This document shows, one piece after another, positions 57,833-64,000 of a stretch of DNA of 64,000 nucleotides. Where the stretch lies: assembly GCF_001937665.1 (NCBI RefSeq), contig NZ_MSKL01000029.1:1-64000 (forward strand), written 5' to 3'. A program made the translations under genes and the position numbers. The notes under the pieces are model-generated. The model saw only the letters and a program-made list of their open reading frames with translations, ran no database searches and was not told the DNA's origin. This DNA comes from Actinomyces oris. Lineage in GTDB: Bacteria; Actinomycetota; Actinomycetes; Actinomycetales; Actinomycetaceae. The first letter of the stretch is position 1; every line of letters starts with the position of its first letter.

Positions 57833-58135
57833 TCAGTGGCCTCCGCAGCCGCAGCCGCCACCGCTCGAGGCGGAGGCGGAGACATCGCGCAGGCCCAGCA
57901 GGTTGCCGGCCTTGTGCCCGGGGGTGATGCCCTGCGGCGCGGCCGCCCCCAGCGCCGTCGTCACCGCTGAGGCGATCGCGACGGCGTCGACGTTCTCCGG
58001 GGAGGTCTGTGCGGGCTCCGGCCGGTAGCCCTCTCCCACCGGCTGGGCGACTGCGGGAGCGGCGGCCCGCTCGTCCTGCTCATTGCGCTTGCCGTGCCCG
58101 CCGCATCCGCAGCGGCACCCGCCGGTCTGGCTCAT
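57833..58135 (-). CDS. Small Cys/His protein with CGCGGH at both ends
   Basis: 100 aa from the second of two ATGs (58135), which has better spacing to GAGGAGAC. The first 14 residues are MSQTGGCRCGCGGH and the last nine GGGCGCGGH. Between them is an Ala/Pro-rich stretch with one conserved-looking helix (VDAVAIASAVTTALGAA) and HKAGNLLGLRDVSA. The duplicated Cys-x-Cys-Gly-Gly-His ends suggest binding of a metal. No family could be named. It is on the same strand as truB and converges with the ABC ATPase gene. Confidence 0.75.
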   Translation of the reverse strand: MSQTGGCRCGCGGHGKRNEQDERAAAPAVAQPVGEGYRPEPAQTSPENVDAVAIASAVTTALGAAAPQGITPGHKAGNLLGLRDVSASASSGGGCGCGGH

Positions 58136-58207
58136 CATGTCTCCTCACGGAAAGGTACTCATCGTGTGTGCTCTCGCCGGACGGGCCGGCGGCCCGTTGT
58201 ACGCGTC

Positions 58208-60007: not shown

Positions 60008-61054
60008 ATGAGCTCCTCCCCCAGTGCATCCTCCTTGGAACCTGAAGCCTCCGCGACGCCGGGCTCTCCGGCAGGCGCCCGGGGGCCCGCGTCGGCCTCC
60101 GGGGTGCTTGACGGTACCGGGATGGCCCTGGTCATCGGCTGCTACACCCTCTGGGGCGCCTTCCCTCTCTACTTCCACCTGTTGTCCGCGGCCGGCAGTG
60201 TGGAGATCATCGGTCACCGGATCGTGTGGACCCTGGGCACCTGTCTGACGCTCATCGTCGCGCGCCGCCGTTGGGCAAGCCTTGCCCGCGTCTGCCGCAC
60301 GCCCCGACTGCTGGGGGCGCTGACCGCCTGCGGACTCCTGGTGTCGGTCAACTGGCTCGTCTACGTCTACGGCGTCAACACCGCACGCACGGCCGACGCG
60401 GCCCTGGGCTACTTCATCAACCCGCTGGTGACGGTGGCACTGGCCTCGCTGGTGCTGCGCGAGCGCCTGCGGCCGGCGCACCGGGTCTCGCTCGCGCTGG
60501 CGGGCGTCGCCGTGGCCCTCCTGGTGGTGCTCCAGGGCTCGTTGCCGTGGATCTCCCTGGTACTGGCCTTCTCCTTCGCCCTGTACGGACTGGTCAAGAA
60601 GAGGATCGGCCCCGAGGTGGACGCTCTGAGCGGGCTTGCGGTGGAGAGCGCCGTCGTGTCTCCCCTCGCGCTCGCCTACCTGGGTCACATGGCCTGGCAG
60701 GGGCAGTCGGTCTGGCAGGCCCCCGACCAGGGCTGGCAGATCATGGCGCTGCTCGTGGTGGCCGGCCCGGTCACGGCCGTGCCCCTGCTGCTCTTCGCAG
60801 CAGGGACCAGGCGGGTGCCGTTGTCGGTGGTGGGAATGAGTCAGTACATCGCGCCGACCATCCAGTTCCTGCTGGCCTGGGGCGCCTTCCATGAGCGGAT
60901 CCTGCCGGCCCGCTGGGCGGCCATGGTGCTGGTGTGGGCGGCGGTTGCGGTCTTCATCGGTGACGCGGTGCGCCAGCTCATTCGCCGTCCTCGTCCTCGT
61001 CAGCGTCCGGCAGAGCGACCTGGGAGCCGAAGCGCTCCAGGAGCGGGCCGATGA
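60008..61054 (+). CDS. rarD: EamA/RarD-family transporter
   Basis: 348 aa, ATG 60008. Ten membrane segments of the drug/metabolite transporter superfamily. GMALVIGCYTLWGAFPLYF and EIIGHRIVWTL are RarD marks, with NWLVYVYGVNTARTADAALGYFINPLV and YIAPTIQFLLAW also typical. RarD is named for a chloramphenicol-sensitive phenotype and its substrate is unknown. The basic C-terminal ~30 residues are encoded in the same DNA as the 3' end of the SPFH gene on the other strand (77-nt overlap). Confidence 0.9.
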   Translation: MSSSPSASSLEPEASATPGSPAGARGPASASGVLDGTGMALVIGCYTLWGAFPLYFHLLSAAGSVEIIGHRIVWTLGTCLTLIVARRRWASLARVCRTPRLLGALTACGLLVSVNWLVYVYGVNTARTADAALGYFINPLVTVALASLVLRERLRPAHRVSLALAGVAVALLVVLQGSLPWISLVLAFSFALYGLVKKRIGPEVDALSGLAVESAVVSPLALAYLGHMAWQGQSVWQAPDQGWQIMALLVVAGPVTAVPLLLFAAGTRRVPLSVVGMSQYIAPTIQFLLAWGAFHERILPARWAAMVLVWAAVAVFIGDAVRQLIRRPRPRQRPAERPGSRSAPGAGR

Positions 61055-61778
61055 TGTCCATCGGCAAAGGGAAGACAACCGTGGAGTTCTGGTCGGCGCC
61101 GAGTTCCAGAAGGGTCTGCAGGTAGCGCAGCTGGAGGGAGGCCGGGGACTTGGAGAGTGTGTCCGCCGCCTGGCGCAGCTCCTCGGAGGCCTGGAGCTCA
61201 CCGCGGGCATTGATGATCTTGGCGCGGCGCTCGCGCTCGGCCTCGGCACCGCGGGCCATGGCCCGCTGCATCTGCTCGGGGATCTCCACGTCCTTGATCT
61301 CGACGACGCTGACCTCCACGCCCCAGGGCTCGGTGAGCTTCTCGATGATGTCGCGCAGGTCGGCGTTCAGGGCGCTGCGGTGGGCGAGCACGGTGTCCAG
61401 GTCGACCCGGCCCAGGACGGATCTCAGTGTGGTCTGCGCGATCTGGGAGGTGGCGATCGCGTAGTTCTCCACTGCCATGACGGCTTTGACAGGGTCGGTG
61501 ACGTTGAACAGGACGACGGCGTTGACGCGCGCCGGCACATTGTCCTCAGTGATGACCTCCTGGGGCGGAATGGTCAGGGTGACCACTCGGGTGTCGACCC
61601 GCACCAGGCGCTCGAGGAAGGGGACGACCAGATGCAGACCGGGTTCGTAGACGGGTCGTAGTCGCCCCAGCCTGAAGACGATGCCCCGCTCGTACTGGGT
61701 GATGATCTTGAGAGATAGTGCCAGGGCGAGTAGGACGAGGACGGCCAGGGCCACGATGGCGGTGGTGAGAGTAGTCAT
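60978..61778 (-). CDS. SPFH/band-7 protein (slipin/stomatin-like)
   Basis: 266 aa, ATG 61778. An N-terminal membrane segment (AIVALAVLVLLALALSLKIITQYERGIVFRLG region) is followed by the band-7 domain: YEPGLHLVVPFLERLVRVDTR, VTLTIPPQEVITEDNVPARVNAVV, and a coiled C-terminal half (AEAERERRAKIINARGE). SPFH proteins form membrane microdomain scaffolds, often with an NfeD-type partner, not seen here. The last residues are acidic (DADEDEDGE). It converges with rarD, with overlap. Confidence 0.92.
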   Translation of the reverse strand: MTTLTTAIVALAVLVLLALALSLKIITQYERGIVFRLGRLRPVYEPGLHLVVPFLERLVRVDTRVVTLTIPPQEVITEDNVPARVNAVVLFNVTDPVKAVMAVENYAIATSQIAQTTLRSVLGRVDLDTVLAHRSALNADLRDIIEKLTEPWGVEVSVVEIKDVEIPEQMQRAMARGAEAERERRAKIINARGELQASEELRQAADTLSKSPASLQLRYLQTLLELGADQNSTVVFPLPMDIIGPLLERFGSQVALPDADEDEDGE

Positions 61779-61828: not shown

Positions 61829-62770
61829 TCATCTGCTTGTGGTGTCGGTGGCCTCGTTCCACACCGAGGACCATGAGCGCCGGGCTCCGCCGCGAGCACC
61901 ATCGCCGACATCGACAGAGCCGAGCTCGGCGCCGGTGACCGGGACTCGCTTGCGGGTGCGCAGGGCGGTGACGCGACGCAGCTCGGGCTCTGCGGAGACG
62001 GCAGTCCCGCTGTCCGCCTTCCCGGCGCCGTCGGAGTCGGCAAGGAAGGGGACGCGCACGGTCCGCCCCGTTGCTGCCGCACGAGCCTGAGCGGCGGCGA
62101 TCGCCTCGGCCGCCTCACGCACCGAGCGGTAACCCGAGGGGCGTGAGGAGATCGTCACTGGCACCGGCCCGGTTGAGGCGGCGCTCGCCGAGCGACGGAC
62201 CTCCTCGGCCTCGAGGTACTCCTTGGAGCCGACGTGGGGCAGGTGGGCCGGCGCGTTGTCGGGGGTGTTCCACAGATGGCGGGCCAGCGGCAGGACTCCG
62301 GCGACAATGACGACGACGGTCGTCGTGCCCAGGACGATGAGGTCGCCGGTGGCGTGAAAGGCCATCATGAGCAGCATCGGAATGAAGACACCGACGCAGG
62401 TGATGACCAGGCCCACACCGCGATGGAAGCGTCCGGCGTCGGAGTAGGGCCACGGGTCGACGGGCCGGGTGATCTCCCGCGGACCGGGGGTGGGCGAGCA
62501 GCTGTCCTTGGACGGACAGCGCCCGCAGATAGCATGAGCCCCCTCGTAGCGGATGACGCGCTTATCCGGGTCGAAGGCGGTGGGCCAGAGCCACTGGTCC
62601 TCGTGGCACCTCCAGCCGTCGACGTCGTCGTGGTACATGAAGTCCGAGTGCCGCCAGGACATCGAGTGCCGGGCGCTGCGCGAGCCGAGGACGTCCACGA
62701 CCCACCCAGCGGCCAGCATGATGAGCGCGTAGGCGGAGACGAGCCATACGCTCAGGTCGGGTGAGTCCAT
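61829..62770 (-). CDS. Membrane protein with WhiB-like cysteine signature, next to NO reductase
   Basis: 313 aa, ATG 62770, which overlaps the NO reductase stop by 1 nt, so the two are surely cotranscribed. One membrane segment (~8-29) is followed by a loop with four cysteines at 55, 82, 85 and 91, spaced C-x26-C-x2-C-x5-C. Two more segments lie at ~118-138 and ~143-165, then a long hydrophilic Ala/Ser/Arg-rich tail. The spacing is the one that binds a [4Fe-4S] cluster in WhiB-family regulators, but the WhiB GVWGG turn is absent. Basic residues after the first segment place the Cys loop on the cytoplasmic side. No known family was recognised with confidence. A role in NO reductase assembly, electron transfer or NO sensing is inference. 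Confidence 0.75.
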   Translation of the reverse strand: MDSPDLSVWLVSAYALIMLAAGWVVDVLGSRSARHSMSWRHSDFMYHDDVDGWRCHEDQWLWPTAFDPDKRVIRYEGAHAICGRCPSKDSCSPTPGPREITRPVDPWPYSDAGRFHRGVGLVITCVGVFIPMLLMMAFHATGDLIVLGTTTVVVIVAGVLPLARHLWNTPDNAPAHLPHVGSKEYLEAEEVRRSASAASTGPVPVTISSRPSGYRSVREAAEAIAAAQARAAATGRTVRVPFLADSDGAGKADSGTAVSAEPELRRVTALRTRKRVPVTGAELGSVDVGDGARGGARRSWSSVWNEATDTTSR

Positions 62771-63999
62771 CAGTCGTTCAGCTCCGCGCGCTCACCACGC
62801 CAGGCTTTGCGCCCACCCTGGATCTCCTCGTAGAGGGCGTCCTCGGCGAAGGTGTCCACCGTCCGTCCACGACGCCAGTTCCTCAGTCCCAGGAAGGCGA
62901 TGTAGAGGTAGGGCAGGACTCCGCCGATGATGAAGATGAGGTCTCCGGGCATCCGCCCCCACTCGATGATCGTGTTGACCGAGTTGGTGACGTAGGTGAG
63001 CTGGCGGGCCTCGAAGTAGCCAGTGCCCACCGAGTAGCGCAGCTGGAGGATGCCCAGCGGTAGCAGGGTGGCGAAGCACATCCAGGCCAGGCCGATGTTG
63101 AGGCTCCAGAAGGAGGTCTTGGCGAGTCTCTCGGGCCACTTGTCGGCCGGCACCAGGTAGCGCAGGGCGAACATTCCCAGCGCCAGCGCCATGAAGCCGT
63201 AGACGCCCATCATGGAGGCGTGGGCGTGGTTGGCCGTCAGCGCGGTCCCGATCTCGTAGTAGGACACGATGGGCAGGTTGACCAGGAAGCCGAAGACACC
63301 GGCCCCTAGGAAGTTCCAGAAGCCGACGGCCATGAGGAACATGACGGCCCAGCGGTGCGGGAAGGGGCCCGCCTCCTTGCCGTGGCGGTTGGCGCCCAGC
63401 TGCATGAAGGCCCATGCCTCCACCGTCAGGAAGGTCAGGGGGATCACCTCGGCGGCTGAGAAGAAGGCGCCCAGGGCCATGTGCTCCACCGGCGTGCCGG
63501 AGAAGTAGAGGTGGTGCATGGTGCCGATGACGCCGCCTGCGGAGTACAGGATGATGTCCATGAAGATGATGCCCAGCGCGATCCTCTCCCGGACGACGCC
63601 CAGGAGGACGAACACGTAGGCGACCATGACGGTGGTGAACAGCTCGAGGAAGTCCTCGACCCACAGGTGCACCACCCAGAAGCGCCAGAACTCGGCGACG
63701 GTGACGTGGGTACCGGTGCGCGCCATCATCCCCACGGCGTAGAAGGCGGGGATAGCCAGGGCTGCGAACATGAACAGCCAGGGCATGTTCGCCACGTGCT
63801 CGTTGCTCAGGCGCGACCGCATGGCGCGCCAGATGATGAACACCCAGACGAACAGGGCCAGGGTGAGCAGCACCTGGAAGACGAAGGGAAGGTCGAGATA
63901 CTCCCACTGCTGGGAGAACAGCGGCCCCTTGGCCCAGCTCAGGCCGTGCTGGCTGGCGCCCTCCGCCAGACAGGACAGGACGACGACGACCGTGGCCGC
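62770..63999 (-). CDS. norB: Quinol-dependent nitric oxide reductase, large subunit (partial, N-terminus off window)
   Basis: 409 C-terminal residues, open at the right edge. It reduces NO to N2O at a haem b3/non-haem iron site in the membrane. The heme-copper-oxidase fold is clear: about ten membrane segments, LWVEDFLELFTTVMVAYVFVLL, IGTMHHLYFSGTPVEHMALG with its His pair, and ALTANHAHASMMGVYGFMALAL with the haem-ligand His region. The opening seen here (LAEGASQHGLSWAKGPLF, then QQWEYLDLPFVFQVLL) is that of qNor C-terminal halves. It probably serves NO detoxification, since no other denitrification gene is in view. The next gene encodes the Cys-motif membrane protein. Confidence 0.93.
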   Translation of the reverse strand, partial: AATVVVVLSCLAEGASQHGLSWAKGPLFSQQWEYLDLPFVFQVLLTLALFVWVFIIWRAMRSRLSNEHVANMPWLFMFAALAIPAFYAVGMMARTGTHVTVAEFWRFWVVHLWVEDFLELFTTVMVAYVFVLLGVVRERIALGIIFMDIILYSAGGVIGTMHHLYFSGTPVEHMALGAFFSAAEVIPLTFLTVEAWAFMQLGANRHGKEAGPFPHRWAVMFLMAVGFWNFLGAGVFGFLVNLPIVSYYEIGTALTANHAHASMMGVYGFMALALGMFALRYLVPADKWPERLAKTSFWSLNIGLAWMCFATLLPLGILQLRYSVGTGYFEARQLTYVTNSVNTIIEWGRMPGDLIFIIGGVLPYLYIAFLGLRNWRRGRTVDTFAEDALYEEIQGGRKAWRGERAELND

Positions 64000-64000
64000 G

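Follow-up and report, generated by a model that had tools for sequence, protein, structure and literature searches.

What is encoded directly after norB in Actinomyces oris, and what could a nitric oxide (NO) reductase gain from such a neighbor? The window, a stretch of 64,000 nucleotides, ends within norB and carries a set of three genes:

62770..64000, minus strand: 3' part of norB, quinol-type NO reductase; the gene extends to contig position 65112
61829..62770, minus strand: qNOR partner gene, 313 aa, an intact ORF with an ATG start, for which homologs were found
60978..61778, minus strand: SPFH/band-7 gene, 266 aa, third gene of the set; best NCBIfam match HflK

The name norB had been given in the first-pass annotation, and it proved right. 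The full gene (contig 62773-65112, 780 aa) runs past the window end, and its product matches in Pfam the NorB cytochrome-c-like domain (1.6e-54) and COX1 (9.6e-50). The fusion of these two domains makes it a one-chain quinol-type NO reductase (qNOR). The A of the partner ATG is the final base of the norB TGA stop, and the 1-nt overlap read earlier from the sequence is thus borne out by the coordinates. The first-pass annotation names no strand; the plus-strand translation of 61829-62770 contains four stops. The SPFH gene starts 50 nt beyond the partner gene, with which it presumably forms one operon; its HflK match in NCBIfam (1.6e-23) lies below the cut-off. Divergent from norB, on the part of the contig past the window end (L008:5486-7057, plus strand), there is a gene for a 523-aa protein in which a cytochrome b561-like membrane part is joined to a molybdopterin oxidoreductase domain. 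This protein is encoded beside norB in 11 of 14 loci of the same genus (L080-L093). Elsewhere in the window, a minus-strand ORF of 101 aa (57833-58138) is rich in Cys, Gly, and His at both ends (GGCRCGCGGH ... GGGCGCGGH) and matches no model of Pfam or NCBIfam with E up to 1.

The product of the partner gene can be divided into five parts:

62687..62743, minus strand: predicted TM1, residues 10-28, from hydropathy; helix 6-41 in the structure model
62456..62641, minus strand: Cys4 domain, residues 44-105 (C55, C82, C85, C91), by sequence a homolog of the Cys4 region in IS1182 / DDE_Tnp_1_6 transposases
62417..62455, minus strand: juxtamembrane motif DPWPxSExxRFHRG, residues 106-118; the core WPxSExxRFH is also found in a Cys-less short form
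62285..62416, minus strand: predicted TM2-TM3 hairpin (119-137, 144-162), from hydropathy and the model
61832..62284, minus strand: C-terminal tail, residues 163-313, varying in length and sequence among relatives

The protein has a fifth cysteine at position 125. The four others had been described as lying between membrane segments in the spacing C-x26-C-x2-C-x5-C, and their positions and the hydropathy profile, which puts them between predicted TM1 and TM2, agree with this. They had also been expected to be conserved, and they are invariant in an alignment of 29 relatives (29/29), while Cys125 is a cysteine in five of the 29. The spacing is exact in all 29, so the cysteine pattern is not due to chance. 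The selective constraint is concentrated in the same region. When the window gene was compared with four orthologs of the same genus, omega was 0.038, 0.057, 0.053, and 0.095 at residues 36-118, 0.15-0.84 in the N-terminal and TM2-TM3 membrane segments that flank the Cys domain (four comparisons), and 0.27-0.53 in the C-terminal tail (three comparisons). Hence, the Cys domain and the motif behind it are the part under the strongest purifying selection. We considered whether the gene could be a transposase remnant or a pseudogene and dropped this idea, because the frame is intact, omega in the domain is 0.04-0.10, and several families have the gene after norB.

Where would the domain be placed in the cell? 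The mean number of K+R is 3.4 at residues 29-43, 0.1 at 1-9, and 0.2 at 138-143, and the positive charge at 29-43 would put the Cys domain and the tail in the cytoplasm. A structure model of residues 1-195 has a pLDDT of 83.9. Modeled alone, the Cys domain reaches 75.8 and shows two short helices, bearing C82-C91, with strands on either side. Fold searches gave no match with E <= 0.001, either for the whole membrane model (PDB) or for the domain model (PDB and viral libraries), and sequence searches of the PDB revealed no credible relative (best E 0.27).

How regularly does the partner accompany qNOR? In the family sample (200 genomes), 20 genomes match the partner. One of these (G044) was set aside as spurious, the match being a 60-aa frame with two stops (E 5.7e-4). 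The other 19 are exactly the 19 genomes with a qNOR, although shared presence in close relatives does not count as independent evidence. Partner matches were found in 14 of 396 genomes of the order sample and in 17 of 396 genomes of the phylum sample. Seven of the latter 17 are in genomes with a qNOR (the copy in G740 ends after the RFHRG motif), two are gene pieces in fragmentary MAGs with no norB in reach (G861, G913), and the other eight comprise matches to the domain alone, transposase frames, and a WhiB protein (G912). The search for norB covered the family and phylum samples. In the phylum sample (396 genomes), it gave nine genomes with a strong qNOR match (E below 1e-200), of which seven have the partner. 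The remaining two, G602 and G805, belong to one genus and have a lone qNOR with 57-58% identity to norB; no partner or SPFH gene was detectable in the fetched stretches around it (L110 and L111). A tenth genome, G231, has two divergent qNOR pieces.

The homologs had been expected next to norB, and this is where they lie. We fetched 36 loci (L063-L098), i.e., the long and partial homologs of the three samples minus the window's own, with G138 included twice and with gene starts that are estimates. Both genes are present in 34 of the 36, and in 33 of these 34 the partner comes directly after norB, on the same strand and within 120 nt. The sole interrupted pair (L068) has an IS21 transposase gene (L068:7565-9127) between norB and the partner. 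Of the 34 loci with both genes, 31 have the SPFH gene next, on the same strand (two of them after a gap of 221-290 nt); no SPFH gene was detected in the three pair-bearing loci from outside the class (L075-L077). The two loci beyond the 34, L078 and L079, have no norB. In L078, from a fragmentary MAG, the partner gene lacks its 5' end and lies beside unrelated genes (L078:2146-2664); a 554-aa minus-strand ORF on the same contig is SPFH-like by eye only. The six named relatives are all from Actinomyces. Overall, the presence and the position of the partner follow qNOR, which it accompanies in many of the actinobacteria examined.

Plasmids revealed a variant of this arrangement. On the Streptomyces plasmid NBC_00271 (L176), a protein of 129 aa is encoded after qNOR, with a 4-nt overlap. 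It has TM1, the WPHSExxRFH motif, and TM2-TM3, and the Cys4 domain is wholly missing; 32 of 67 residues are identical to those of one long member. Close relatives of this short form were found in two of 150 genomes of one genus (E 7.9e-26 and 6.3e-25), probably Streptomyces, and both follow qNOR (L190, L191). Six more matches among the 150 genomes are weak (E 0.001-0.008). Two further Streptomyces plasmid records match the short form (E 5e-16, in two pieces, and 2e-17) and have no norB within 5 kb on either side, an indication that the short form need not always accompany qNOR. Hence, the membrane scaffold is common to the qNOR loci of both forms, and the Cys domain can be absent. Was this domain gained or lost? 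A tree of 35 qNORs, built without eight near-copies of the same genus and without L078 and L079, which have no norB, has an unresolved backbone and gives no time order for the two forms. Beyond Actinomycetota, the deliberate search was of plasmid records: 73 match norB (E <= 1e-40), of which 60 were listed and four viewed. A plasmid search with the window protein returned one record only, on translation a transposase-like piece; having missed the short form, that search is insensitive to it.

The finding of a conserved cysteine domain inside a membrane protein raises an additional question: where does it come from? The NCBIfam model of IS1182 transposases (NF033551) is matched by all 29 members (E up to 1, best 5e-13). 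Its match to the window protein (3.8e-5) spans residues 34-105 and covers model positions 348-418 of 488 only; with 22.8 bits where the cut-off is 270, this is no full-length IS1182 match. PF13751 is matched by 20 of the 29 members (E up to 1, best 3.6e-5), and the window protein itself has no match to it in Pfam at E up to 1. A profile-profile comparison (hhalign) with 11 transposase rows aligned 63 columns (probability 99.4, E 1.6e-21); the search for these rows had used the partner profile or protein, which tilts hhalign toward similarity, a bias of which the NCBIfam result is free. None of 100 column shuffles that kept the Cys and the gappy columns reached the score. The 11 rows come from 16 candidates. 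We left out L058, a WhiB protein, L061, of which 34 residues matched, and L118, L144, and L145. The last three, two IS1182 proteins of relatives, align with the partner profile along just 21 residues (E about 0.04), pointing to a distant rather than a close tie to them. When the rows were scanned whole (10 of 11, omitting L113), six passed the IS1182 cut-off with 308-350 bits and the other four, which are partial frames, had IS1182 as their best NCBIfam match; DDE_Tnp_1_6 (PF13751) matches all 10.

In the joint alignment of 36 rows of both kinds, the residues F, C, L, Y, C, C, C, and R are invariant, and the partner is 30% identical to the first transposase row. Both kinds share CxxC-x5-C. The first gap differs in that it is fixed at C-x26-C in the partner and ranges from 24 to 34 in the transposase rows. 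Moreover, the partner domain sits between membrane helices, without the remainder of the transposase, and its net charge is -3.1 (29 rows) versus +3.5 in the transposases (11 rows), which speaks against DNA binding. Judged from sequence, IS1182-family transposases have in their Cys4 region a homolog of the whole domain of about 63 residues. Other databases were less informative. UPF0179 (PF03684), possibly a further relative of the Cys4 loop, has a match in a transposase frame (L051:1429-1764; 0.00067) and weak ones in three partner proteins (best 0.22). In PHROGs, the window protein has no match, and two relatives weakly match phrog_8928 (6.1e-5 and 2e-4), a family of unknown function.

How could such a protein serve qNOR? 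The reading we lean to, tentatively and with somewhat less than an even chance of being right, is that the partner is a dedicated three-helix accessory of qNOR whose cytoplasmic Cys4 metal site stabilizes or regulates the enzyme, perhaps together with the SPFH protein. The three membrane helices and the motif at the membrane edge would dock the partner beside qNOR, and the loop between TM1 and TM2 would hold a compact Cys4 domain on the cytoplasmic side. This domain may bind one metal center, either Zn or a [4Fe-4S] cluster, with a slight lean to the cluster, and could act as a switch of the stability or activity of qNOR rather than as a catalytic part. The partner and the HflK-like SPFH protein would then probably help, under NO stress, to assemble the reductase or to control its quality. 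Gene order, co-occurrence, the invariant cysteines, the homology of the domain, and the selection are established by the data, whereas the topology (read from the charge bias), the metal, physical contact with qNOR, and the role are inferred. Some observations speak against an accessory role: the SPFH gene is absent from L075-L077, the gene pieces in G861 and G913 have no norB in reach, and the Cys domain can be absent. Furthermore, PMC9976466 reports a single-gene qNOR to be active without further genes, with none needed for FeB insertion and NorQD not required; together with the lone qNORs of G602 and G805, this indicates that qNOR can do without the partner.

An alternative, which we consider unlikely, is that the protein senses NO: nitrosylation of a putative cytosolic [4Fe-4S] cluster would turn the activity of qNOR, or its turnover via the SPFH protein, up or down. 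Apart from the linkage of the gene to an NO-consuming enzyme, this idea draws on a likeness to WhiB/Wbl proteins (PF02467), which also have four cysteines, the last three as CxxC-x5-C, and a first gap of 21-30 (32 rows) against 26 in the partner. The two share a local loop, xVCxxCPVxxxC. A profile-profile comparison with the 32 WhiB rows aligned 24 columns only, around CxxCPxxxxC (probability 82, E 1e-5), and this score was not attained in any of 100 shuffles in which the Cys columns stayed fixed. Hence, the likeness does not come from the cysteines alone, and the loop may bind a cluster in a similar way. Weak matches to PF02467 were found in 13 of the 29 members (E up to 1, best 0.0014); the window protein has none at E up to 1. 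Conversely, the partner profile picked up a WhiB-family protein in L058 (E 6.8e-5; PF02467 1.1e-22), so that the likeness of the loop is visible from both sides.

The first-pass annotation had spoken of a WhiB-like signature, and of this the cysteine spacing and the likeness of the 24-column loop stand. Membership of the WhiB family does not, and we ruled it out: there are only 24 alignable columns, three predicted TM helices, and no significant Pfam match, and neither the window protein nor the family consensus contains GVWGG, named as a characteristic WhiB motif in PMC5741622. The partner domain is thus of the IS1182 kind, with a WhiB-like loop that is additional, perhaps by convergence. Against the sensor idea, a Zn site would not sense NO in this way, and the predicted fold is beta-rich in a model of moderate confidence, unlike WhiB1, described as helical in PMC5741622.

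Could the metal have a more modest function? A structural zinc, with the Cys4 site merely holding a small beta domain that docks qNOR or the SPFH protein, seems to us rather doubtful. The homologs of the domain are DDE transposases of the IS1182 type, where a structural metal would do, and the reversal of the surface charge relative to these transposases fits a docking domain. However, CxxC-x5-C with one distant Cys is typical of [4Fe-4S] sites (WhiB, EndoIII, AddB, Cas4) and is not known to be typical of zinc ribbons.

We dropped, as very improbable, the possibility that the domain is an electron donor, relaying electrons to qNOR or the quinone pool from a reductant in the cytosol. The gene adjoins that of a respiratory enzyme, the protein has four conserved cysteines, and a ferredoxin-like frame lies some kilobases off in two of seven loci read by eye (L063 and L077, there beside a narG-like frame). 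However, qNOR takes its electrons from quinol, the short form lacks the Cys domain, and no dehydrogenase or ferredoxin frame recurs at one place in these seven loci, of which the first 90 residues of each frame were read. A membrane-tethered DNA-binding regulator retaining the DNA-handling role of the transposase domain was dropped as hardly credible, since the homology to a region of a DNA transposase that suggests it comes with a reversed charge and without the remainder of that transposase.

The dedicated accessory that we favor has precedents of a different kind. NorE, NorF, NorQ, and NorD are accessory proteins encoded with the gene of the cytochrome-c-type NO reductase, and the partner resembles them in being encoded with an NO reductase gene. 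It differs from them in going with qNOR, for which NorQD is reportedly not required (PMC9976466, from which the role of NorQ and NorD is also taken). In Pfam, the window protein lacks any COX3, AAA+, or VWA hit, even with E allowed up to 1. According to PMC8692524, qNOR is the product of one gene "existing alone or in a small operon." No described function had been known to the first-pass annotation for such a norB partner, and we likewise found no description of the protein in the open-access literature, to which our search was mostly confined. What is new here is a respiratory accessory protein that carries, in a new place, a domain known from transposases. A bolder and quite doubtful scenario would be that a respiratory partner protein acquired, between two of its membrane helices, a Cys4 module that transposases also have, and that this module lost a basic, presumably DNA-facing surface and now holds an NO-reactive [4Fe-4S] cluster that tunes qNOR from the cytoplasm, with the Streptomyces-type lineage keeping a version without the sensor.

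If the accessory role is true, qNOR has in several actinobacterial families a partner whose Cys domain is its best conserved part, and this protein would be a missing piece of actinobacterial NO detoxification. The partner domain also offers a handle on the identity of the metal that IS1182-type transposases bind in their Cys4 region.
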